Origin: Atopsyche davidsoni
Taxonomy: Eukaryota; Arthropoda; Insecta; Trichoptera; Hydrobiosidae
Direction: 5' to 3'
Assembly: GCA_022113835.1 (NCBI GenBank)
Contig: JAILWY010000024.1
Span: forward strand, 3,166,501 to 3,230,500
Length of the DNA: 64,000 nucleotides
Below are positions 15,071 to 61,444 of this stretch, piece by piece. The position numbers were made by a program, and so were the translations under genes. Position 1 is the first letter of the stretch. Each line of letters opens with the position of its first letter. The notes beneath the pieces were generated by a model, which was not told the origin of the DNA, ran no database searches, and saw nothing but the letters and a program-made list of their open reading frames with translations.

Positions 15071-16244
15071 CGAGGGCGGTCCGAGAAGTACTTAGCCTAC
15101 AAAATAAAAACGAAAAATAGTCTCCTTTTAGCTCGATTCACTTGACCCAGCGATGCTCCAACTTCTTTAACCCATCGGAAAAATACGTTTTCTCGTGGTC
15201 TGGAAAGTAGACCTCCGTGGCGGCGATGACCTCCTCATTCGACATAAATTTCTGCCCGGCGAGTGACTTTTTCAAGTTTCAAGTGGATTGGGGAGCAGTT
15301 CGTAGTGCGATTCGAGCGATTTGGCCGTGGCGACGGCGGAGGTGTGAGCCGGTGCGTTGTCACGGTGGAAGAGCACTTTTTTCTTCGCCAATCGGCCCAA
15401 TAATTCGGCATAGTAGAGCCCATCGTAGTTCCATAGTTTCGCTCTTCTCCAGGTAGTCAATGTAGATCACACCTTGTGAATCCCAGAAAACGGTGGCCAC
15501 CACCTTTCCGGCCGATAGGACAGCTTTCGCCTTCTTCGGAGCACGTTCGCCGGGTGAAGTCCACTGTTTCGACTGCTCCTTGGTCTCTGATGTATACCAG
15601 TGGATCCATGTTTCGTCGACGGTCGCGAAACGACGCAGAAACTCCTTCGGATTGCGCTTAAACAGCGTCAAACACTGCTCCGAAGTGGTCTCACGGTTGC
15701 GCTTGCTGTCCGGAGTGAACAAACGCGGCACCCATCGCGCCGACAGCTTTCTCATGCCCAAAATTTCATGCAAGGTATGACCCACGTGGTCTTTACTATT
15801 TCAGCTATCTCGCGCATCTTCAATCGGCGATCTGCCAATACGAGATCGTGGATTTTTGTCACGTTATCCTCCGTGGTAGCCATTTTCGGATCTCCTGGGC
15901 GTGGCTCATCAAAAACCGACGTGCGACCACGTTGAAACTCGTTAAACCAATTTTTGACGGTCGCCATCGAAGGAGAAGAGTCACGGTACACAGTATCCAA
16001 GCGCTCTTTGATTTCCCTTCCAAAAACAAGAATCGAATCACCGACCGATATTGCTCTTTTCCCATTTTTCTAAAATACGCGTTCACGTCCGCTTTCACAC
16101 GCGGTCAAAACAAAACTACGAGTTCGATTCGGCTGAAATTTTGACAGTAGCCGTCTACGAGAATGTACTACACGATAGTGCATTGATACTTGCGATACTA
16201 GCACCATCGGGCGGTGAGGCTAAGTACTTATCGGACCGCCCTTG
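15071..16244 (-). mobile_element. Mariner element with both TIRs and TA duplication, inactive
   Basis: Left end CGAGGGCGGTCCGAGAAGTA (15,071 on) and right end TACTTATCGGACCGCCCTTG (to 16,244) are imperfect inverted repeats of about 28 bases with two mismatches. Both are flanked by TA (15,069-15,070 and 16,245-16,246), the mariner target duplication. Total length is 1,174 bp, somewhat shorter than the usual 1.25-1.35 kb, in line with internal deletions. The transposase reads right to left. Confidence 0.9.
15100..16065 (-). pseudogene. Mariner DD34D transposase pseudogene
   Basis: Starting at 16,065 (MGKEQYRSVIRFLFLEGKSK, helix-turn-helix), the protein continues in a second frame with SMATVKNWFNEFQRG and FDEPRPGDPKMATTEDNV. 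A third frame (15,785-15,360) gives GMRKLSARWVPRLFT and the first catalytic Asp in TVDETWIHWY, and a fourth (around 15,400-15,272) gives the second Asp in LFHRDNAPAHTS. There are at least three frameshifts. After YELLPNP the reading jumps to KKSLAGQKF, so the 'YSPDLAP-D' block with the third catalytic Asp is deleted. A TGA at 15,138-15,140 interrupts HRWVK before the usual KGD ending. It encodes no active transposase. Confidence 0.88.
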
Positions 16245-39427: not shown

Positions 39428-39720
39428 CCCCCCCCCCCCCCCCCCGCCCCGCGCTGCGGTGCCCCCGGCTTGATTCCTCGTTTAAAACACTTGAAGATGA
39501 CGGCGGGGCGCGGAGAGTGCGGGGAGAGGGGGGGGGGGCGTAATGAACTCTTCATCCGCTGCAAATTTGAATTATAGCCGTTTCCCGTTCCGGCGACTCT
39601 TCCGGGACATGTTTTCAAATTTGGAATTCCATTTGACTTGTCCTTGGTTTTTTTTTTTTTTTAAATTCTCCGATTAATCAGATGCGATCGCTTTCTGCAG
39701 AACCCCCCCCCCCCCCCCCC
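39428..39720. repeat. Two poly-C tracts
   Basis: C runs at 39,428-39,445 and 39,703-39,720 flank a GC-rich patch with a G run at 39,531-39,538. Homopolymers of this length are prone to sequencing error. Confidence 0.85.
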
Positions 39721-39960
39721 TCATTGGGCATTAAGATTATTACTGTTGAACATTCAATAAATCGCATTTTTGCCAATTATTTTATACTTTATTTATTGTA
39801 TGCATGCCAGTCTTGACTATAGGGCCAAGTAATACCTTTCATGATTTAACCGATATAGTACGATGACGACAGGTGACCGGGATCGATAGTAACTCGACTG
39901 AACAATAAGATGTGATCTCCGACTGCCTGAAGAAAATATTTTTTCAATTCAGTTATTGTC

Positions 39961-39989
39961 CATTAACGTGAGCTTTTTTTTGTTTTCAG
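39961..39989 (+). promoter_or_regulatory. 3' splice site (acceptor) before the array exon
   Basis: CATTAAC (39,961-39,967) resembles a branch site. It is followed by CTTTTTTTTGTTTTCAG with AG at 39,988-39,989, a strong polypyrimidine tract and acceptor with no AG in between. The next base begins the GC-rich exon that holds the start codon at 40,168. Confidence 0.65.
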
Positions 39990-40251
39990 GTGTCTGAATC
40001 GACGAGGATATTTTTCAAGGGCAATTGAAGAGTGCGCGCGAGCCGAGTGCCAGATTGGGAACCGGAAGTGCGAGCCGAGTCGGTTTCGTGGGCGGCGACG
40101 GCGGCAGCGGGCGGGGGCGCGATGAGCGCGGCATGAGGCACGCGGCGGGGCGGCGCCGCTAGGGCGCATGTCCCAGGCCAGGCGGCTGGTGCAGGCGCTG
40201 AGGGGGCGCGCCTCCTGCGCCAGCCTCGTCAACGCCTCGGACCACCACAAG
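39990..40251 (+). CDS. Predicted exon with start codon; N-terminal 28 codons at 40,168-40,251 of an unidentified protein
   Basis: Between the acceptor at 39,988 and a GTAACC donor at 40,252 lies a 262-base GC-rich exon. Two short upstream frames (40,122-40,136 and 40,133-40,162) precede the ATG at 40,168. An in-frame stop at 40,123-40,125 excludes an earlier start. The coding part is exactly 28 codons, MSQARRLVQALR...SLVNASDHHK, ending in phase 0 with AAG just before GT. Read on, the intron gives Val-Thr-stop. I do not recognise the protein; an Arg/Ala-rich start is compatible with many cytoplasmic or membrane-associated proteins. The exon's 3' part is unit 1 of the 51-unit array, so equivalent start and donor pairs recur every 178 bases. 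Exon status is inferred from splice signals and has no transcript support here. Confidence 0.5.
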
Positions 40252-43200
40252 GTAACCTAATCTACTCTGACTAGACGCCACACTACTCGCGATGCCGCCC
40301 TGAGCGCGGCATGAGGCACGCGGCGGGGCGGCGCCGCTAGGGCGCATGTCCCAGGCCAGGCGGCTGGTGCAGGCGCTGAGGGGGCGCGCCTCCTGCGCCA
40401 GCCTCGTCAACGCCTCGGACCACCACAAGGTAACCTAATCTACTCTGACTAGACGCCACACTACTCGCGATGCCGCCCTGAGCGCGGCATGAGGCACGCG
40501 GCGGGGCGGCGCCGCTAGGGCGCATGTCCCAGGCCAGGCGGCTGGTGCAGGCGCTGAGGGGGCGCGCCTCCTGCGCCAGCCTCGTCAACGCCTCGGACCA
40601 CCACAAGGTAACCTAATCTACTCTGACTAGACGCCACACTACTCGCGATGCCGCCCTGAGCGCGGCATGAGGCACGCGGCGGGGCGGCGCCGCTAGGGCG
40701 CATGTCCCAGGCCAGGCGGCTGGTGCAGGCGCTGAGGGGGCGCGCCTCCTGCGCCAGCCTCGTCAACGCCTCGGACCACCACAAGGTAACCTAATCTACT
40801 CTGACTAGACGCCACACTACTCGCGATGCCGCCCTGAGCGCGGCATGAGGCACGCGGCGGGGCGGCGCCGCTAGGGCGCATGTCCCAGGCCAGGCGGCTG
40901 GTGCAGGCGCTGAGGGGGCGCGCCTCCTGCGCCAGCCTCGTCAACGCCTCGGACCACCACAAGGTAACCTAATCTACTCTGACTAGACGCCACACTACTC
41001 GCGATGCCGCCCTGAGCGCGGCATGAGGCACGCGGCGGGGCGGCGCCGCTAGGGCGCATGTCCCAGGCCAGGCGGCTGGTGCAGGCGCTGAGGGGGCGCG
41101 CCTCCTGCGCCAGCCTCGTCAACGCCTCGGACCACCACAAGGTAACCTAATCTACTCTGACTAGACGCCACACTACTCGCGATGCCGCCCTGAGCGCGGC
41201 ATGAGGCACGCGGCGGGGCGGCGCCGCTAGGGCGCATGTCCCAGGCCAGGCGGCTGGTGCAGGCGCTGAGGGGGCGCGCCTCCTGCGCCAGCCTCGTCAA
41301 CGCCTCGGACCACCACAAGGTAACCTAATCTACTCTGACTAGACGCCACACTACTCGCGATGCCGCCCTGAGCGCGGCATGAGGCACGCGGCGGGGCGGC
41401 GCCGCTAGGGCGCATGTCCCAGGCCAGGCGGCTGGTGCAGGCGCTGAGGGGGCGCGCCTCCTGCGCCAGCCTCGTCAACGCCTCGGACCACCACAAGGTA
41501 ACCTAATCTACTCTGACTAGACGCCACACTACTCGCGATGCCGCCCTGAGCGCGGCATGAGGCACGCGGCGGGGCGGCGCCGCTAGGGCGCATGTCCCAG
41601 GCCAGGCGGCTGGTGCAGGCGCTGAGGGGGCGCGCCTCCTGCGCCAGCCTCGTCAACGCCTCGGACCACCACAAGGTAACCTAATCTACTCTGACTAGAC
41701 GCCACACTACTCGCGATGCCGCCCTGAGCGCGGCATGAGGCACGCGGCGGGGCGGCGCCGCTAGGGCGCATGTCCCAGGCCAGGCGGCTGGTGCAGGCGC
41801 TGAGGGGGCGCGCCTCCTGCGCCAGCCTCGTCAACGCCTCGGACCACCACAAGGTAACCTAATCTACTCTGACTAGACGCCACACTACTCGCGATGCCGC
41901 CCTGAGCGCGGCATGAGGCACGCGGCGGGGCGGCGCCGCTAGGGCGCATGTCCCAGGCCAGGCGGCTGGTGCAGGCGCTGAGGGGGCGCGCCTCCTGCGC
42001 CAGCCTCGTCAACGCCTCGGACCACCACAAGGTAACCTAATCTACTCTGACTAGACGCCACACTACTCGCGATGCCGCCCTGAGCGCGGCATGAGGCACG
42101 CGGCGGGGCGGCGCCGCTAGGGCGCATGTCCCAGGCCAGGCGGCTGGTGCAGGCGCTGAGGGGGCGCGCCTCCTGCGCCAGCCTCGTCAACGCCTCGGAC
42201 CACCACAAGGTAACCTAATCTACTCTGACTAGACGCCACACTACTCGCGATGCCGCCCTGAGCGCGGCATGAGGCACGCGGCGGGGCGGCGCCGCTAGGG
42301 CGCATGTCCCAGGCCAGGCGGCTGGTGCAGGCGCTGAGGGGGCGCGCCTCCTGCGCCAGCCTCGTCAACGCCTCGGACCACCACAAGGTAACCTAATCTA
42401 CTCTGACTAGACGCCACACTACTCGCGATGCCGCCCTGAGCGCGGCATGAGGCACGCGGCGGGGCGGCGCCGCTAGGGCGCATGTCCCAGGCCAGGCGGC
42501 TGGTGCAGGCGCTGAGGGGGCGCGCCTCCTGCGCCAGCCTCGTCAACGCCTCGGACCACCACAAGGTAACCTAATCTACTCTGACTAGACGCCACACTAC
42601 TCGCGATGCCGCCCTGAGCGCGGCATGAGGCACGCGGCGGGGCGGCGCCGCTAGGGCGCATGTCCCAGGCCAGGCGGCTGGTGCAGGCGCTGAGGGGGCG
42701 CGCCTCCTGCGCCAGCCTCGTCAACGCCTCGGACCACCACAAGGTAACCTAATCTACTCTGACTAGACGCCACACTACTCGCGATGCCGCCCTGAGCGCG
42801 GCATGAGGCACGCGGCGGGGCGGCGCCGCTAGGGCGCATGTCCCAGGCCAGGCGGCTGGTGCAGGCGCTGAGGGGGCGCGCCTCCTGCGCCAGCCTCGTC
42901 AACGCCTCGGACCACCACAAGGTAACCTAATCTACTCTGACTAGACGCCACACTACTCGCGATGCCGCCCTGAGCGCGGCATGAGGCACGCGGCGGGGCG
43001 GCGCCGCTAGGGCGCATGTCCCAGGCCAGGCGGCTGGTGCAGGCGCTGAGGGGGCGCGCCTCCTGCGCCAGCCTCGTCAACGCCTCGGACCACCACAAGG
43101 TAACCTAATCTACTCTGACTAGACGCCACACTACTCGCGATGCCGCCCTGAGCGCGGCATGAGGCACGCGGCGGGGCGGCGCCGCTAGGGCGCATGTCCC

Positions 43201-46200
43201 AGGCCAGGCGGCTGGTGCAGGCGCTGAGGGGGCGCGCCTCCTGCGCCAGCCTCGTCAACGCCTCGGACCACCACAAGGTAACCTAATCTACTCTGACTAG
43301 ACGCCACACTACTCGCGATGCCGCCCTGAGCGCGGCATGAGGCACGCGGCGGGGCGGCGCCGCTAGGGCGCATGTCCCAGGCCAGGCGGCTGGTGCAGGC
43401 GCTGAGGGGGCGCGCCTCCTGCGCCAGCCTCGTCAACGCCTCGGACCACCACAAGGTAACCTAATCTACTCTGACTAGACGCCACACTACTCGCGATGCC
43501 GCCCTGAGCGCGGCATGAGGCACGCGGCGGGGCGGCGCCGCTAGGGCGCATGTCCCAGGCCAGGCGGCTGGTGCAGGCGCTGAGGGGGCGCGCCTCCTGC
43601 GCCAGCCTCGTCAACGCCTCGGACCACCACAAGGTAACCTAATCTACTCTGACTAGACGCCACACTACTCGCGATGCCGCCCTGAGCGCGGCATGAGGCA
43701 CGCGGCGGGGCGGCGCCGCTAGGGCGCATGTCCCAGGCCAGGCGGCTGGTGCAGGCGCTGAGGGGGCGCGCCTCCTGCGCCAGCCTCGTCAACGCCTCGG
43801 ACCACCACAAGGTAACCTAATCTACTCTGACTAGACGCCACACTACTCGCGATGCCGCCCTGAGCGCGGCATGAGGCACGCGGCGGGGCGGCGCCGCTAG
43901 GGCGCATGTCCCAGGCCAGGCGGCTGGTGCAGGCGCTGAGGGGGCGCGCCTCCTGCGCCAGCCTCGTCAACGCCTCGGACCACCACAAGGTAACCTAATC
44001 TACTCTGACTAGACGCCACACTACTCGCGATGCCGCCCTGAGCGCGGCATGAGGCACGCGGCGGGGCGGCGCCGCTAGGGCGCATGTCCCAGGCCAGGCG
44101 GCTGGTGCAGGCGCTGAGGGGGCGCGCCTCCTGCGCCAGCCTCGTCAACGCCTCGGACCACCACAAGGTAACCTAATCTACTCTGACTAGACGCCACACT
44201 ACTCGCGATGCCGCCCTGAGCGCGGCATGAGGCACGCGGCGGGGCGGCGCCGCTAGGGCGCATGTCCCAGGCCAGGCGGCTGGTGCAGGCGCTGAGGGGG
44301 CGCGCCTCCTGCGCCAGCCTCGTCAACGCCTCGGACCACCACAAGGTAACCTAATCTACTCTGACTAGACGCCACACTACTCGCGATGCCGCCCTGAGCG
44401 CGGCATGAGGCACGCGGCGGGGCGGCGCCGCTAGGGCGCATGTCCCAGGCCAGGCGGCTGGTGCAGGCGCTGAGGGGGCGCGCCTCCTGCGCCAGCCTCG
44501 TCAACGCCTCGGACCACCACAAGGTAACCTAATCTACTCTGACTAGACGCCACACTACTCGCGATGCCGCCCTGAGCGCGGCATGAGGCACGCGGCGGGG
44601 CGGCGCCGCTAGGGCGCATGTCCCAGGCCAGGCGGCTGGTGCAGGCGCTGAGGGGGCGCGCCTCCTGCGCCAGCCTCGTCAACGCCTCGGACCACCACAA
44701 GGTAACCTAATCTACTCTGACTAGACGCCACACTACTCGCGATGCCGCCCTGAGCGCGGCATGAGGCACGCGGCGGGGCGGCGCCGCTAGGGCGCATGTC
44801 CCAGGCCAGGCGGCTGGTGCAGGCGCTGAGGGGGCGCGCCTCCTGCGCCAGCCTCGTCAACGCCTCGGACCACCACAAGGTAACCTAATCTACTCTGACT
44901 AGACGCCACACTACTCGCGATGCCGCCCTGAGCGCGGCATGAGGCACGCGGCGGGGCGGCGCCGCTAGGGCGCATGTCCCAGGCCAGGCGGCTGGTGCAG
45001 GCGCTGAGGGGGCGCGCCTCCTGCGCCAGCCTCGTCAACGCCTCGGACCACCACAAGGTAACCTAATCTACTCTGACTAGACGCCACACTACTCGCGATG
45101 CCGCCCTGAGCGCGGCATGAGGCACGCGGCGGGGCGGCGCCGCTAGGGCGCATGTCCCAGGCCAGGCGGCTGGTGCAGGCGCTGAGGGGGCGCGCCTCCT
45201 GCGCCAGCCTCGTCAACGCCTCGGACCACCACAAGGTAACCTAATCTACTCTGACTAGACGCCACACTACTCGCGATGCCGCCCTGAGCGCGGCATGAGG
45301 CACGCGGCGGGGCGGCGCCGCTAGGGCGCATGTCCCAGGCCAGGCGGCTGGTGCAGGCGCTGAGGGGGCGCGCCTCCTGCGCCAGCCTCGTCAACGCCTC
45401 GGACCACCACAAGGTAACCTAATCTACTCTGACTAGACGCCACACTACTCGCGATGCCGCCCTGAGCGCGGCATGAGGCACGCGGCGGGGCGGCGCCGCT
45501 AGGGCGCATGTCCCAGGCCAGGCGGCTGGTGCAGGCGCTGAGGGGGCGCGCCTCCTGCGCCAGCCTCGTCAACGCCTCGGACCACCACAAGGTAACCTAA
45601 TCTACTCTGACTAGACGCCACACTACTCGCGATGCCGCCCTGAGCGCGGCATGAGGCACGCGGCGGGGCGGCGCCGCTAGGGCGCATGTCCCAGGCCAGG
45701 CGGCTGGTGCAGGCGCTGAGGGGGCGCGCCTCCTGCGCCAGCCTCGTCAACGCCTCGGACCACCACAAGGTAACCTAATCTACTCTGACTAGACGCCACA
45801 CTACTCGCGATGCCGCCCTGAGCGCGGCATGAGGCACGCGGCGGGGCGGCGCCGCTAGGGCGCATGTCCCAGGCCAGGCGGCTGGTGCAGGCGCTGAGGG
45901 GGCGCGCCTCCTGCGCCAGCCTCGTCAACGCCTCGGACCACCACAAGGTAACCTAATCTACTCTGACTAGACGCCACACTACTCGCGATGCCGCCCTGAG
46001 CGCGGCATGAGGCACGCGGCGGGGCGGCGCCGCTAGGGCGCATGTCCCAGGCCAGGCGGCTGGTGCAGGCGCTGAGGGGGCGCGCCTCCTGCGCCAGCCT
46101 CGTCAACGCCTCGGACCACCACAAGGTAACCTAATCTACTCTGACTAGACGCCACACTACTCGCGATGCCGCCCTGAGCGCGGCATGAGGCACGCGGCGG

Positions 46201-49200
46201 GGCGGCGCCGCTAGGGCGCATGTCCCAGGCCAGGCGGCTGGTGCAGGCGCTGAGGGGGCGCGCCTCCTGCGCCAGCCTCGTCAACGCCTCGGACCACCAC
46301 AAGGTAACCTAATCTACTCTGACTAGACGCCACACTACTCGCGATGCCGCCCTGAGCGCGGCATGAGGCACGCGGCGGGGCGGCGCCGCTAGGGCGCATG
46401 TCCCAGGCCAGGCGGCTGGTGCAGGCGCTGAGGGGGCGCGCCTCCTGCGCCAGCCTCGTCAACGCCTCGGACCACCACAAGGTAACCTAATCTACTCTGA
46501 CTAGACGCCACACTACTCGCGATGCCGCCCTGAGCGCGGCATGAGGCACGCGGCGGGGCGGCGCCGCTAGGGCGCATGTCCCAGGCCAGGCGGCTGGTGC
46601 AGGCGCTGAGGGGGCGCGCCTCCTGCGCCAGCCTCGTCAACGCCTCGGACCACCACAAGGTAACCTAATCTACTCTGACTAGACGCCACACTACTCGCGA
46701 TGCCGCCCTGAGCGCGGCATGAGGCACGCGGCGGGGCGGCGCCGCTAGGGCGCATGTCCCAGGCCAGGCGGCTGGTGCAGGCGCTGAGGGGGCGCGCCTC
46801 CTGCGCCAGCCTCGTCAACGCCTCGGACCACCACAAGGTAACCTAATCTACTCTGACTAGACGCCACACTACTCGCGATGCCGCCCTGAGCGCGGCATGA
46901 GGCACGCGGCGGGGCGGCGCCGCTAGGGCGCATGTCCCAGGCCAGGCGGCTGGTGCAGGCGCTGAGGGGGCGCGCCTCCTGCGCCAGCCTCGTCAACGCC
47001 TCGGACCACCACAAGGTAACCTAATCTACTCTGACTAGACGCCACACTACTCGCGATGCCGCCCTGAGCGCGGCATGAGGCACGCGGCGGGGCGGCGCCG
47101 CTAGGGCGCATGTCCCAGGCCAGGCGGCTGGTGCAGGCGCTGAGGGGGCGCGCCTCCTGCGCCAGCCTCGTCAACGCCTCGGACCACCACAAGGTAACCT
47201 AATCTACTCTGACTAGACGCCACACTACTCGCGATGCCGCCCTGAGCGCGGCATGAGGCACGCGGCGGGGCGGCGCCGCTAGGGCGCATGTCCCAGGCCA
47301 GGCGGCTGGTGCAGGCGCTGAGGGGGCGCGCCTCCTGCGCCAGCCTCGTCAACGCCTCGGACCACCACAAGGTAACCTAATCTACTCTGACTAGACGCCA
47401 CACTACTCGCGATGCCGCCCTGAGCGCGGCATGAGGCACGCGGCGGGGCGGCGCCGCTAGGGCGCATGTCCCAGGCCAGGCGGCTGGTGCAGGCGCTGAG
47501 GGGGCGCGCCTCCTGCGCCAGCCTCGTCAACGCCTCGGACCACCACAAGGTAACCTAATCTACTCTGACTAGACGCCACACTACTCGCGATGCCGCCCTG
47601 AGCGCGGCATGAGGCACGCGGCGGGGCGGCGCCGCTAGGGCGCATGTCCCAGGCCAGGCGGCTGGTGCAGGCGCTGAGGGGGCGCGCCTCCTGCGCCAGC
47701 CTCGTCAACGCCTCGGACCACCACAAGGTAACCTAATCTACTCTGACTAGACGCCACACTACTCGCGATGCCGCCCTGAGCGCGGCATGAGGCACGCGGC
47801 GGGGCGGCGCCGCTAGGGCGCATGTCCCAGGCCAGGCGGCTGGTGCAGGCGCTGAGGGGGCGCGCCTCCTGCGCCAGCCTCGTCAACGCCTCGGACCACC
47901 ACAAGGTAACCTAATCTACTCTGACTAGACGCCACACTACTCGCGATGCCGCCCTGAGCGCGGCATGAGGCACGCGGCGGGGCGGCGCCGCTAGGGCGCA
48001 TGTCCCAGGCCAGGCGGCTGGTGCAGGCGCTGAGGGGGCGCGCCTCCTGCGCCAGCCTCGTCAACGCCTCGGACCACCACAAGGTAACCTAATCTACTCT
48101 GACTAGACGCCACACTACTCGCGATGCCGCCCTGAGCGCGGCATGAGGCACGCGGCGGGGCGGCGCCGCTAGGGCGCATGTCCCAGGCCAGGCGGCTGGT
48201 GCAGGCGCTGAGGGGGCGCGCCTCCTGCGCCAGCCTCGTCAACGCCTCGGACCACCACAAGGTAACCTAATCTACTCTGACTAGACGCCACACTACTCGC
48301 GATGCCGCCCTGAGCGCGGCATGAGGCACGCGGCGGGGCGGCGCCGCTAGGGCGCATGTCCCAGGCCAGGCGGCTGGTGCAGGCGCTGAGGGGGCGCGCC
48401 TCCTGCGCCAGCCTCGTCAACGCCTCGGACCACCACAAGGTAACCTAATCTACTCTGACTAGACGCCACACTACTCGCGATGCCGCCCTGAGCGCGGCAT
48501 GAGGCACGCGGCGGGGCGGCGCCGCTAGGGCGCATGTCCCAGGCCAGGCGGCTGGTGCAGGCGCTGAGGGGGCGCGCCTCCTGCGCCAGCCTCGTCAACG
48601 CCTCGGACCACCACAAGGTAACCTAATCTACTCTGACTAGACGCCACACTACTCGCGATGCCGCCCTGAGCGCGGCATGAGGCACGCGGCGGGGCGGCGC
48701 CGCTAGGGCGCATGTCCCAGGCCAGGCGGCTGGTGCAGGCGCTGAGGGGGCGCGCCTCCTGCGCCAGCCTCGTCAACGCCTCGGACCACCACAAGGTAAC
48801 CTAATCTACTCTGACTAGACGCCACACTACTCGCGATGCCGCCCTGAGCGCGGCATGAGGCACGCGGCGGGGCGGCGCCGCTAGGGCGCATGTCCCAGGC
48901 CAGGCGGCTGGTGCAGGCGCTGAGGGGGCGCGCCTCCTGCGCCAGCCTCGTCAACGCCTCGGACCACCACAAGGTAACCTAATCTACTCTGACTAGACGC
49001 CACACTACTCGCGATGCCGCCCTGAGCGCGGCATGAGGCACGCGGCGGGGCGGCGCCGCTAGGGCGCATGTCCCAGGCCAGGCGGCTGGTGCAGGCGCTG
49101 AGGGGGCGCGCCTCCTGCGCCAGCCTCGTCAACGCCTCGGACCACCACAAGGTAACCTAATCTACTCTGACTAGACGCCACACTACTCGCGATGCCGCCC

Positions 49201-49204
49201 TGAG
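40123..49204 (+). repeat. Tandem array: 51 identical 178-bp units, each with start codon, 28 codons and 5' splice site
   Basis: Units start with TGAGCGCGGCATGAGG at 40,123, 40,301, 40,479 and so on to 49,023; 51 x 178 = 9,078 bases reach 49,200, and a final TGAG occupies 49,201-49,204. Each unit holds 45 bases of 5' leader, 84 coding bases (ATG at unit position 46) and 49 bases of intron (GTAACCTAATC...GATGCCGCCC). I see no variant among the units. Because 178 is not a multiple of three, frame rotates between units and no long frame exists on the + strand. The recurring 89-codon minus-strand frame, which ends once per pair of units, is a by-product. The left edge (GGGCGCGA|TGAG) and right edge (TGAG|AGCTGC) show the ancestral single copy. 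Confidence 0.98.
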
Positions 49205-49378
49205 AGCTGCAGTGAGGCTTATTCGTGATAGGCCACGCTGTGACGTCATTGCATGCTGTTTCTCAAGTATCATACGAATTATACATCCCTTTGATACTAT
49301 TCGTGCTAGTCGTGCTGTTTTTACTGCCCTTGCACCAGTAGGATGTATGATCCTCACGATACGCCAAGATAGGCCAAC
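49205..49378. other. Unique sequence between array and MITE
   Basis: Presumed intron. It contains TGACGTCA at 49,241-49,248 and loosely mirrored phrases (ATACGAATTATACATCCC and GGATGTATGATCC). No coding sequence is supported. Confidence 0.4.
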
Positions 49379-49380
49379 TA

Positions 49381-49769
49381 CAGTAATACCCTGCTTTACA
49401 CGAGGGATACGTTCCGGTAAAAATCGCGATAAGTGAAATTCGCATATATCGGGGTTTACGATTAAACATACATACATAGTCAAAACTTAATACATATAAA
49501 TACGAATCATTGTATGCAGTATTTCATGTTATTTTTTACTGAAAAATACATTTATTGTCTTTTGGGTAGCGTTTCTTTTACGTTCTTGTAAAATACGTTC
49601 ATAACACCCAACGCTGTTTTTAATTGTTAAGAGAAATCAATGAGTACATTATGTTCATACACATTCTTAAAATAAGAAATTCGCGTAATGCGAGGCATTT
49701 TAACGCGAAATTTGAAATTCGCGTTATAGTGAAACAGCGCATAACGGGGTCGCGTAAAGCGGGGTATTA

Positions 49770-49772
<3 letters not shown>
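49381..49772. mobile_element. Tigger/pogo-type MITE, complete (392 bp)
   Basis: Left end CAGTAATACCCTGCTTTACA and right end TAAAGCGGGGTATTACTG form inverted repeats of about 22 bases with two mismatches. The unit is flanked by TA (49,379-49,380 and 49,773-49,774). CAGT-ends with 'ATACCCCGCTTTACGCG' and a TA target are characteristic of pogo/Tigger-derived MITEs, mobilised in trans by a Tigger transposase. It has no coding capacity. It is a near twin of 13,333-13,718, showing recent activity of the family. Confidence 0.8.

Positions 49773-49837
<65 letters not shown>
49773..49837. repeat. (TA)n microsatellite
   Basis: About 32 TA dinucleotides directly adjoining the MITE's right end, probably grown from its TA target duplication. 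Confidence 0.95.
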
Positions 49838-49841
<4 letters not shown>

Positions 49842-50279
49842 TTATAGTTATTTTAGTCCCATATTTTCATATCTGAGTGTAAATATAGTTTTTGTATAGT
49901 AAGTAAATCACCCGGTTCTCGGAACCTTCAAATGACGATGACACCTGATAGAAAGGGTTGTCGCACCCCTTCCGCCACATTGAAGTGCATCTGTCAGCGG
50001 TAAAGCTCTGTCACCACATATATCTTGCTACAGAACCAGTCGGGATGAAACTGAAATGACGGAGGGTGGCTGAGGGGTTGGAGGGTGATCGAAGTGAATT
50101 TTCAGACGAATATATATGTGCGTGGGGATGTTTGCAGGGCTCGCACGAGCTGGAAGAGATATCGGTGGTCAGCGGGGCTGTTAGCACTGCCCCCAACGGA
50201 CCCGGGTTCACATCTGGTAAGTCAATTTTTAATTTTGTCTCTCAAATAAACTCCTCGTTTGTGTATCCGTTGTATTGAT

Positions 50280-53200
50280 ATTCTTACGGTTCTCAACTGC
50301 ATTTTTGTAAATAAATATATATTGCGTTATCATACCTTGCATACCTTAATTGATTTTATTTGAGTATACGTTTTGACTATGCATATATATTTAATTTAAA
50401 TATTTACGAAAAAAACAATATATATATTTAAATATATTGTTATATGTTTTAGGGTATGGATTGCTCCAGAATTGAGAGTATTTCGTCCAATCAATTAGGC
50501 TTATTGTTCCCTGTCATTGTTTAAGGACAGTGTAACGCAATATTGATGGATGGGGCCGGCTACGGTTACCGAGTTAAAGTTGCGAAGACTCCCCCCCTAA
50601 CATTATTATCCCGCCGAATCCGCCGACTTGGGAAGTGAAATATCGTCCGCTTATCCGGCGAGGATTTATCAACAATGAAATGTCGGGCGCGCCGCCGTGC
50701 AACGGCCCGCCGGGGAAAATTGATATTGTTCAAGTTTTCAACGGTGTCAGATGACACGCCACGTTTTTGAAGCAGAGTTTGCAAATACTTTAAAATGAAT
50801 TTACAATGTTTATATACAGTAATAGTAGTTGTTCAGAACGTACAAGTATATTCTTCACATCTCGTACCCATGTAGAGTAAACTTTATTGCGTTGAGTGAA
50901 TGTATTTAGATAAATGGATCGAAATAATAATTAGGTTGTACGTCCAGTAATTAAAAGTCAATTTATGAAAATTCGATTATAAACGGAATTATTATTGTCG
51001 TTGAGGTTGTTATCAAAATGATGTTGTATGGCCATCACTTCTTTTTATCGCTGGGTTCGGTTGAAGCCTTTCGCTCCTGACCTTCCGCGACGATAACGAG
51101 ATCCCCTCCGCGGTGAGTGCCCTAGGTTTGAGGGTTGGGAGTACGTTCTTCCGGCTCCGAGTACCCCCGCGCCCTCGAGGGGTTCTCACGCTGAGTGGGA
51201 GGTACGTAGATAATTTTATGCAGAATTGTACAACAGGTGATGCGCCGCAGACTGAAATAAACATTAAATAAGTCAGGAGGATCAAGTTCTAATACATTTT
51301 CATTGCTATTCTGTGCATGAGCCTCCCTCGTATGTGACGTAGTCGACCCATGGTGTTTTGAGAATTCCCCCTATAAAGCCACATGCCAAAGGCCTCGACT
51401 TTTCGCTTCTACTCTATAAATAAGAACTGAGACAGCGTAGCGAGTCAACTCAAACATCACTAAAAGCATGTACAGCACGGAGACTTGATGTTTCAAACGA
51501 CTATATTACATGTATTTTTTTACATCTGAAGGGTGACGTCATATTTCACGGAGTTACTGAAATAATGACGTAGGGGTTGCGCGTCACAACCAGATGAATA
51601 CGTTCTTCGTCCCTGGCGGGGCCCCTGCTCCAGCAGCGGGCCAGTCGACACGTGGTACGCTTTACGGCCTGCACGTGTTTCGAATGCTTACACCCCGCGT
51701 GTCTTCCCTTACAATTCGAGGGGTGATAATGACCGTTTTATTTTTTAGTTCACGATTTTTCTGTAAAATATTTCAAACCTTATTTTTATTATTACGCTGC
51801 ATGAAACATTACGCAATCGATACGGTGCGGCGTGATTTGACGCTTCGTATATATTATAAAAGAAAAATCATAACACCGAAAACACCCTAGAGATTCTCGA
51901 CGGAGGCCTCGACATAAAAAAATCATTTGATTATAATAAAATATGTGAAAGGTAACATTTGTAAAATAGTAGCAAAAATATATATATTTTAAAATCATAA
52001 ACGGAAACACAGCGTTTTGTTTATAAAAATAGCTTTGAAAATATATTCGAATTCACAGTTGAAAGGACACGCTATGTATCGGAATGAAAGTGGAAACTTT
52101 ACACTGCCGCTGTAGCAAAAGGGCAAGACTCAGCGAGGCGACGAACCTTTTCAAAAACTAGCGGACAAAGCGCCATCTCGCGGAACAAAACTACATCATT
52201 AGTATGTCACCAATACGGATGATTATTTAAAACCCTCAACTGCATACTGGGACAGATCGGTAACAAACCTCAAAACTTTTTTTTAAACCCCAAAAAAACT
52301 TATAGGATCAACCATTTCGTTTTGTGACTGTTATGTTGGACCTGACTAACTAATTTAAATCAAGTTTTTAGCACTAACAGCCATAGAATAGGCACAAACC
52401 GTATTAGATGATGACATTTGCCAACTGAGCGAAAACGTGATTTAAGTATAAGCTATTGGAACACATTTTTTTAGATCTTTTTTCTACGTCAAAAATATAT
52501 TTTAAATTTCAAAGTAAGTTATTTTCATAATCAATTAAAGTTATTAAGGTTAATGATATTATTTATCATGATTTGAATAAAACGTGGCGGTGTGACTCGT
52601 AGCAGCTTCGCTTCGCTAAAAAAATGTAATTTCACTTGAATTTGCACGTTGATATGTAGGAAATAATTTAATTATACACGCTGCGAGCCAAAAACAAATA
52701 TTGCTTGGACCAATTATAGCAGCGGTAACGGAAATGACAGAAAACTTGCACCAGTTAAATTATTTTCTTCAAAGATTTCACTTTTCTCTCAAACTGGTGT
52801 CGATAAATTATTTTTCAATACCTTTTGAGTCACCCGAATAAGAAAATTAATTGCTCATAACATTAAAACCTCATAGCTGATAACCATGCATGCAAGACTG
52901 TTAAGCGATTAGACTTGAAGTGAATTAATCATTAACATCCGAAGAGCTAAGATTTTAGTAACCTGAGAATTTATAGTTTATAGCCGAGAACGAGATGATC
53001 GCGAGGTTTTAGGTACCACAGGTTTTGAAGCACTGTGTATACAGAGATCTTGACTTTACGCCACTGAGACGAGCGATTACAGTCTATGTATTTACGTACA
53101 ATTTGCTTTACGATCCCCTTTCGCTGCTAATTGTTATGGCGCTCTTCCGCGGGGCTGGCGCGGCTTTATGGGCGGTTTAATCACCTGCAGGATAGAAGCC

Positions 53201-54759: not shown

Positions 54760-55960
54760 ACAAAGCAGTGGAGAGAGTTAAAAGATTTGGGTATTTGGAC
54801 AGCTGGTCAGGAAATTAATGTGAGAATTGAACATTTGGTGAAGGCACAGCACAGTGCTTATGTTTTAAAAAATAATTTCATGCCCCTTGGTTTCAGAAAT
54901 AAACCACATTGCGTATTTTTAAGGGTGTCATAAATATGGATGTCAGCAGAGAGTTGATTGACAACTTCAATATAAACATCTGATCACGAAATCAAAGTGA
55001 GGATTAAGACAGCACGCAGTACGTTTTATATTTTTTAAGTACTATGCTCAAGAGATATAACCCTGAAATCTCGCTGGAGGTTTACCAAATGTTATACCGT
55101 CTCAGTTCTCCTTTACGGAGTCATGGAAACTCGAGACAGCTACTATGCGAAGAATTGAGGCGGAAGAAATGTGGCAGTATAGGAAAATCCTGATACCATG
55201 GATTGACCGCGTCACAAATCAAAAAGTCTAGCACAGAAATCTCGCTGGATATTCACCAAATGTTATGCCGTCTCAGTTCTCCTTTACGAAGTCGTGGACA
55301 CTCGAGACAGCTACTATGCAAAGAATTGAGGCGGAATAAATGTGGCAGTATAGGAAAATCCTGATACCATGGATTGACCGCGTCACAAATCAAAAAGTCT
55401 AGCACAGAAATCTCGCTGGATATTCACCAAATGTTATGCCGTCTCAGTTCTCCTTTACGAAGTCGTGGACACTCGAGACAGCTACTATGCAAAGAATTGA
55501 GGCGGAATAAATGTGGCAGTATAGGAAAATCCTGATACCATGGATTGACCGCGTCACAAATCAAAAAGTCTTGCACAGAAATCTCGCTGGATATTCACCG
55601 AATGTTATGCCGTCTCAGTTCTCCTTTACGGAGTCGTAGACACCCGAGACAGCTAATATGCAAATAATAGAGGCAGAAGTATGGCTGTATACGTTGAACG
55701 CGTCACAAATGAAAAAGTCTTGCACAGAGTGCGCAAATAAATGGAATTTATGACGTTGGTAAAGAAGCGGAAGGCCTTCTATTTTGGCAATAAATATAGC
55801 ATCCTCCAGATGATTGTCCAAAGAAATCGGGGAAAAAAGGGGCGTCGGTAGGAGGAAATTTACGTGGATGCGGAATTTGCGACAGTGGCTGGATGTCGAA
55901 AGCACAGCCGAATTGAGACTACCCTAACCTTCTATGAGGAATGGCACTAGAAAAAGACAA
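54760..55960 (+). pseudogene. Non-LTR retrotransposon ORF2 C-terminal relic
   Basis: 54,770-54,830 resembles the 'RVKRFGYLDSW' block downstream of the RT palm. 55,067-55,735 repeats a segment reading WTLETATMQRIEAE-MWQYRK and ILIPWIDRVTNQKV, which is the post-RT 'LLYG-EAWTL...RIEAFEMW...R-LRI-W-DRVTN-EVL' block of RTE/Jockey-like insect elements. 55,780-55,930 gives KYSILQMIVQR and the family tail. Stops, frame breaks and the tandem repeat make it inactive. Confidence 0.8.
55067..55735 (+). repeat. 171-bp tandem repeat (4 units) inside the retrotransposon relic
   Basis: AATCTCGCTGGA starts units at 55,067, 55,238, 55,409 and 55,580, exactly 171 bases apart. Units 2 and 3 are almost identical, unit 1 is slightly diverged, and unit 4 is diverged and shortened. 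As 171 is a multiple of three, the reading frame is the same in each. The unit is the WTLETATM-to-DRVTNQKV segment. Confidence 0.92.
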
Positions 55961-60518: not shown

Positions 60519-61444
60519 GGGTGTTTTTTATAGAGGTATAGAACATTGAAATGGAATAAAACAAAGATAATTTTTTTAAATTGACATGAAATTAACTTTA
60601 TTCGAAAGATAATTTTTTGGCATTATAATTTAAATATGATTTCTGGCATATGACCGCCACGGCTGGCTCGGACGTAGTCTAGTCTGGAGGTCCAATTCTC
60701 GATAACTTTTTCCAACATTTGTGGCCGCATATCGGCAATAACGCGGCGAATGTTGTCCTCCAAGTGGTCAATCGTTTTGGGCTTATCGGCGTAGACTAGC
60801 GACTTCACATATCCCCACAGAAAATAGTCTAGCGGTGTTAAATCGCACGATCTTGGAGGCCAATTAACGGGTCCGAAACGTGAAACTATGCGGTTACCAA
60901 ACGTTTCCTTCAATAATGCAATTGTGGCACGAGCTGTGTGACATGTTGCGCCGTCTTGTTGAAACCACAGCTCCTGCACATCATGGTTGTTCAATTGATG
61001 AACGAAAAGTCAGTAATCATGGCTCTATAGCGGTCACCATTGACCGTAACGGCCTGACCAGCATCGTCTTTAAATAAGTACGGAACAATGATTCCACCAG
61101 CCCATAAAGCACACCAAACAGTCAGTTTTTCTGGATGTAACGGTGTCTCAACATACACTTGAGGATTATCATCACTCCAAATACGGCAGTTTTGTTTATT
61201 GACGTATCCATTCAACCAAAAGTGAGCTTCATCGCTAAACAAAATTCGCTTATGAAAATCGGGATCAACGGCAATCTTGTTTTGGGCCCATTCACCAAAT
61301 CTGCGCCTTGCTAGGTGATCGTGTGGCTTCAATTCTTGAAATGCCAAACCAAACTAAACATAAATCCCTTGACAGCTGACAAAATGGCCGCCAGTTAAAA
61401 CAGTGTTGCCAACTTAAAGTTCTATACCTCTATAAAAAACACAA
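60519..61444 (-). mobile_element. DD41D-type Tc1/mariner element, 5'-deleted, with perfect TIRs
   Basis: The 24-base termini 60,521-60,544 (GTGTTTTTTATAGAGGTATA...) and 61,419-61,442 are perfect inverted complements. With two extra bases on each side they are bounded by TA (60,517-60,518 and 61,445-61,446), as expected for Tc1/mariner insertion. At about 926 bp the element is several hundred bases short: the transposase part starts in the linker before the catalytic domain only about 70 bases inside the right TIR. It is therefore an internally deleted copy. Confidence 0.88.
60623..61347 (-). pseudogene. Truncated, frameshifted DD41D transposase
   Basis: The first frame (61,347-60,991) reads MAFQELKPHDHLARRRFGEW, then RILFSDEAHFWLNGYVNKQN with the first catalytic Asp, and ends after GDRYRAMITDF. 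The second frame (60,994-60,623) reads VQELWFQQDGATCHTARA with the second Asp and RSCDLTPLDYFLWGYVKS with the third, ending MPEIIFKL. There are 41 residues between the second and third Asp, giving DD41D, the signature of the rosa-type group rather than DD34D mariner or DD34E Tc1. The N-terminal DNA-binding helices (about 100 residues) are missing, and the frames are shifted near 60,995. The catalytic residues themselves are intact. Confidence 0.85.

Follow-up and report, generated by a model that had tools for sequence, protein, structure and literature searches.

The window analysed here, a 64,000-nt stretch at positions 3166501–3230500 of contig C24 in the caddisfly assembly, contains an array in which an ATG, 27 further codons and a potential 5' splice site recur unchanged in tandem. 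This raises the question of whether a gene's own first coding exon has been amplified in place and, if so, which of its copies would be spliced into the mRNA.

Structure and uniqueness of the array

Unit-by-unit comparison from window position 40123 gave a 178-bp unit in 51 identical head-to-tail copies (51/51), with the period kept over 9078 bp plus four extra bases, TGAG (Table 1). The array is thus confirmed as a real sequence feature of the assembly, as described in an earlier note on this DNA. Tandem Repeats Finder delimited it at 40123–49218, with a degenerate tail. Each unit consisted of 45 bp of leader, 28 codons counted from and including the ATG, and the first 49 bp of intron 1, including GTAACC. 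The coding stretch ended in phase 0 directly before GTAACC in every unit, again as the note had stated. The GC content of the unit was 70%, compared with 39% in the remaining window.

Table 1. Features of the array and of its host gene, in window-based coordinates
Feature	Position	Strand	Details
Array	40123–49204	+	51 identical 178-bp units and TGAG
Leader and first coding exon, copy 1	39990–40251	+	262 nt; acceptor 39989/39990 (score 9.5), ATG 40168, donor 40252
Short upstream frame MSAA*	40122–40136	+	copy 1 only, spans the left boundary; MPP* from copy 2 onward
Short upstream frame MRHAAGRRR*	40133–40162	+	in each unit
Coding exon E1, copy 1 (exon 1)	40168–40251	+	MSQARRLVQALRGRASCASLVNASDHHK; ends in phase 0
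5' splice site GTAACC and first 49 bp of intron 1	40252–40300	+	present in each unit; donor score 3.1
Copy 51, last whole unit	49023–49200	+	ATG at 49068, donor at 49152, by arithmetic from the period
TGAG	49201–49204	+	4-bp microhomology common to both ends of the duplicated segment
Exon 2	50138–50216	+	GSHELEEISVVSGAVSTAPNGPGFTS; 79 nt, starts in phase 0, ends in phase 1, donor GTAAGT
Exon 3	80229–80340
Exon 4	84471–84655
Exon 5	84778–85275
Exon 6	88503–88646
Exon 7	97806–97998
Exon 8	98228–98328
Exon 9	98440–98577

A genome-wide satellite would occur at several places. Searching the whole assembly (370.7 Mb, 80 contigs) with the unit returned 26 tiled matches, all inside the array; repeat counts from this DNA search are lower bounds, and absence of a match is no proof of rarity. 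In the surrounding 264 kb, surveyed for periods up to 500, the next longest arrays with a period of at least 30 were four of 84-bp period (1.5–2.0 kb), followed by one of 614 bp. Four 10-kb samples from other contigs held no array of period at least 20 longer than 72 bp. The estimate of background array frequency is based on these 264 kb and 40 kb. The GC fraction of the four samples was 0.29–0.33, versus 0.31–0.43 in most of the array contig that was seen.

An assembly or library artefact could in principle have turned one or a few real copies into 51, through amplification, consensus polishing or a mis-resolved repeat. The exact identity of all copies would fit such an origin, as would an assembly that is not fully clean, with one COX1 type on four contigs and a second type on another. 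Against it, the array sits in a 9-Mb contig between two unique flanks, a length of 9.1 kb lies within the reach of single long reads, and no similar array was found in the surrounding 264 kb or in the four samples from elsewhere. We consider an artefact unlikely, if still to be reckoned with.

The four contigs carrying the first mitochondrial COX1 type (C46, C54, C61 and C75) had equal search scores, and the three that were seen measured 28–36 kb. The COX1 of C46 was 90% identical to that of Psilochorema bidens, a member of a hydrobiosid caddisfly genus, and 88% identical to that of Apsilochorema hwangi. A different insect COX1 was located on contig C33, possibly from prey or contamination, which suggests that the assembly includes DNA of a second insect. 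The array contig (C24) was taken as the caddisfly's on the evidence of RRRSTY and GEAPLL-type motifs near exons 3–4 of the array gene, which were found in 32 of the 33 listed lepidopteran homologues and in none of the 87 others. Trichoptera and Lepidoptera are sister orders (superorder Amphiesmenoptera in a taxonomy look-up), and Lepidoptera-type motifs therefore fit a caddisfly gene. A candidate cassette exon with SGEAPLL was observed at about 80640–80853 (window-based), its motif type showing the same distribution.

Several other elements were seen in the neighbourhood. A MITE-like element of 392 bp (49381–49772), with terminal inverted repeats CAGTAATACCC.../...GGGTATTACTG, lay 176 bp downstream of the array and adjoined a TA repeat. 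A 171-bp unit at 55065–55678 was present in 3.6 copies that were 95% alike. Broken frames on the minus strand at 15360–16069 and 60623–61353 have the appearance of mariner-type transposases, and exon-like peptides at about 123.9–130.7 kb (window-based), which we take to resemble anoctamin, would belong to the next gene downstream. Zinc-finger frames at about 171–206 kb (window-based) contained the four 84-bp-repeat arrays (17.6–23.5 copies, three seen translated); with their similar upstream exons, they are apparently tandem gene copies.

The host gene and its first coding exon

An exon scan of the window alone gave no rows at strict thresholds and 18 at looser ones, none of them convincing. 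After extension by 150 kb downstream, the same kind of scan revealed the exons of a channel gene that continues past the window. Nine exons joined into one open frame, with fitting phases at all junctions (Table 1). Intron 1, which would hold most of the array, measured 9886 nt, and 30,012 nt separated exon 2 from exon 3. The gene model contained the Pfam domains Ion_trans (PF00520, 8.4e-28) and cNMP_binding (PF00027, 2.7e-18) in that frame. Exon 5 compared with the PDB matched CNGA3 best (4.8e-43), followed by other A-type subunits; CNGB1 matched at 7.6e-27. A protein search with residues 110–400 yielded 1053 homologues, and the 120 listed were all from insects, with 91–96% identity. The names of these 120 were mostly alpha-3, with one "subunit A" and some labelled beta or HCN through automatic naming. 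These data identify an insect cyclic-nucleotide-gated (CNG) channel, and the one-exon PDB match and the homologue names point to the A type (CNGA).

The N-terminus was compared with those of the same 120 listed homologues. The sequence M[S/T]x(1-3)[K/R]RL[V/M] began 76 of them, and in 73 of these 76 a HELDEI-type motif (HEL[D/E]EI) came soon after the start. E1 and exon 2 together carry both motifs in this order. A profile was built from 40 distinct N-termini among the 76 and searched against 2452 six-frame peptides of the window (at least 15 residues, identical ones collapsed, so that the 51 copies counted as one). E1 ranked first (1.8e-5) and exon 2 second (4.5e-4), with the next peptide at 0.18. 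A single-sequence protein search with residues 1–110 gave no match at E ≤ 0.01 among 924 candidates, so the N-terminal homology is carried by the profile test together with position. The PDB, searched with the 54 residues of E1 and exon 2, returned weak matches only (best 0.4). When 12 of the 120 homologues were aligned with these 54 residues, 14 proved invariant, of which those past residue 50 may be alignment chance.

The frame and phases through exon 2, with the first rank of E1 in the profile search, are taken to show that the repeated coding stretch is the true and conserved first coding exon of a CNG channel gene, probably of subunit A, and that it lies in its native place. The earlier note had claimed that a gene's first coding exon and donor were amplified, and this held. 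It had also proposed looking for insect proteins that begin with this sequence; by homology such proteins exist, though the direct search found none.

Origin of the array and fate of its copies

The array would have begun with the tandem duplication of a 178-bp segment whose ends share 4 bp of microhomology, and would then have expanded recently. Expansion could have proceeded by unequal exchange, by template switching or by rolling-circle copying of a small circle. The breakpoint match including TGAG was equalled by 4 of 10000 random positions and by 2 of 145 positions starting with TGAG. Past TGAG, similarity was at chance level (418/10000 controls; 606/5000 GC-rich controls), and the idea that imperfect repeats of 17–18 bp flanked the duplicated segment was dropped because their match beyond TGAG did not exceed chance. 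Folding of the strand as a cause found no support (DNA fold z-score −0.31).

The absence of any difference over 9078 bp places the last homogenisation at most roughly 66,000–157,000 generations ago (95% bound; mutation rates of 5.0e-9 to 2.1e-9). Perfect identity points to very recent or ongoing amplification, which would be traceable in populations. A microDNA-type circle is a possible amplification template. MicroDNA, or small eccDNA, is described as unique genic sequence with microhomology at the junction, a description that the exonic 178-bp unit with its 4-bp microhomology fits in size, genic origin and microhomology. The size class is reported as 200–1000 bp (PMC8599734) or 100–400 bp (PMC5587290).

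Splice sites were scored with a crude home-made matrix. The acceptor of the leader, with a long T tract, scored higher than 99.97% of the plus-strand AG sites in the window (Table 1), which bears out the note's view that the first copy is joined to a believable acceptor and 5' leader. The array donor was moderate (C at +5, 96.9th percentile among GT sites). Within the unit, the best acceptor scored 1.8 (position 102) and another cryptic one 0.6, versus 9.5 for the leader acceptor. The acceptor of exon 2 scored −0.4, below both cryptic ones, so the score alone cannot dismiss array-internal acceptors. Besides the 28-codon frame, each copy contained two further short ATG-led frames.

The consequences of donor choice were computed for k = 1, 2, 3, 10 and 51. 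Use of donor k gives an exon of 262+178(k−1) nt in which the one productive ATG is the last of 3k, after 3k−1 others. Donor 1 yields the 262-nt exon with three ATGs, two of which open short upstream frames; at donor 51, 152 ATGs precede the productive one. An unspliced copy translates to ...HHK-V-T-stop, ending two codons past the donor, and 178 is not a multiple of 3.

We consider it probable that the amplification was recent and intragenic, that copy 1 is used and that intron 1 now holds 50 decoy donors. Copy 1 would remain the working exon in the pre-mRNA because no other copy adjoins the leader, and because its exon of 262 nt carries just two short upstream frames. The intron of about 9.9 kb would enclose copies 2–51, whose 5' splice sites would be decoys with no good acceptor. 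If a later donor were used, the exon would lengthen by 178 nt for each copy and 3k−1 ATGs would come ahead of the productive start, and such mRNA would be poorly translated or decayed. We would expect the array to be neutral for channel output, or to lower it mildly, to a degree that may rise with copy number.

The array could also be silent ballast, with the gene expressed from other first exons and E1 no longer needed. The 120 listed homologues include 33, sorted by name, from Lepidoptera, sister order to the caddisflies; not one of these started with an E1-type MSxAKRLV exon, and 11 other listed proteins also started differently. Alternative first exons may therefore exist and E1 may be dispensable; the long gap between exons 2 and 3 would leave room for them. 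Against this, conserved residues and the reading frame are kept in E1 and exon 2, and the lepidopteran pattern may reflect loss, a different first exon or merely an annotation gap. We regard silent ballast as quite unlikely.

The earlier note itself proposed 51 equivalent donors and starts, any of which could be used to give a family of mRNAs encoding the same protein. The ATG and donor are indeed the same in each unit, and donors close to exon 2 would make for a short intron, of 986 nt in the case of copy 51. Equivalence nevertheless does not follow: the leader with its acceptor directly adjoins copy 1 and no other, the ATG load and exon length grow with k as computed above, and every unspliced copy stops after V-T. 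In a comparable human repeat, discussed below, the donor of the second unit takes about 2%. The copies are therefore not equivalent, and use of any donor at will is very unlikely.

Repeated inclusion of parts of the unit was judged highly improbable. The unit has weak AG acceptors at positions 55 and 73, each falling between two codons of the MSQ frame. They would define internal exons of 75 and 57 nt, which, spliced repeatedly in frame, would build a repeated basic N-terminus. Their scores (−0.7 and −0.9) are near that of the exon 2 acceptor. Their pyrimidine tracts are poor, however, and the cryptic acceptor with the highest score (position 102) would break the frame. The N-terminal motif did not occur twice in the first 400 residues of any of the 120 listed homologues, and no precedent was found in the open-access literature searched. 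If such splicing did occur, one gene would produce CNG subunits whose basic N-terminus varies in repeat number, as set by an array able to change length within few generations.

A short exon with a donor in a homogenised tandem array also recalls spliced-leader RNA genes, but a donor array for trans-splicing is hardly credible: at 39500–50500 no Rfam family matched up to E = 1 except a weak, sub-threshold mir-297 match over the TA repeat at 49770–49840, the unit has neither a spliced-leader RNA match nor a Sm-site-like T run after the donor, and E1 encodes the N-terminus of the very gene that follows it. Equally little remains of an ordinary satellite with a chance reading frame, to which tandem arrangement and high GC content might point, since the unit was found at a single location and the profile and phases make its frame the first exon of the channel; in this, too, the earlier note was right.

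Comparison with known systems

The locus offers a natural experiment on the choice of splice sites, in which a single leader is followed by 51 identical donors, one every 178 bp, and then by one acceptor. Learning whether the splicing stays with copy 1 would put exon-definition, first-come and distance models to a direct test, and would do so in a conserved channel gene. A first coding exon, start codon included, became the unit of a tandem array while the remaining gene keeps its frame.

Insect CNG subunit A genes, most of them named "CNG alpha-3-like" and including Drosophila CNGA, are homologous to the array gene in both the channel core and the N-terminus. At the protein level, their N-terminal motif never occurs more than once in any of the 120 listed. 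Drosophila CNGA is reported to be required for the larval hypoxia escape response (PMC9075734). One may speculate from this role that altered channel output could matter for stream-living larvae.

The closest relative in arrangement is the VNTR in intron 18 of human ABCA7, a tandem repeat that starts exactly at the 5' splice site of its exon (PMC5954066). As reported there, the reference allele has 23.7 units and the largest allele measures 10,678 bp, so that the range of array sizes is alike, and the units likewise carry a GT donor. Tandem units that each contain an exon's 5' splice site are thus common to both loci. The ABCA7 unit, as described in that report, differs in being intronic, 25 bp long and slightly variable between units, without a start codon or coding exon; it follows the internal exon 18 and not a first coding exon, and its length varies between people. 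The donor of the second unit accounted for 2 ± 1% across the tissues tested, whatever the repeat length (PMC5954066). Skipping of the downstream exon amounted to 12% in cell lines, where it increased with repeat length, against 29% in hippocampus and 45% in cortex area BA10 (PMC5954066). By analogy, the array might also cause exon 2 to be skipped; since exon 2 is 79 nt long, this would shift the frame.

The earlier note knew of no described locus of this kind, which stands in part. In the open-access literature searched we found no publication in which a first coding exon and its donor had been amplified in tandem, but a repeat starting at a splice donor has been described in ABCA7. The protocadherin and UGT1A clusters resemble the array in having several tandem first exons before shared downstream exons; their copies have diverged and possess their own promoters, whereas the array copies are identical, with 45 bp of leader per unit. 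A tandem repeat that includes a splice donor is of a known kind, and a first coding exon and start codon inside the unit set this one apart.
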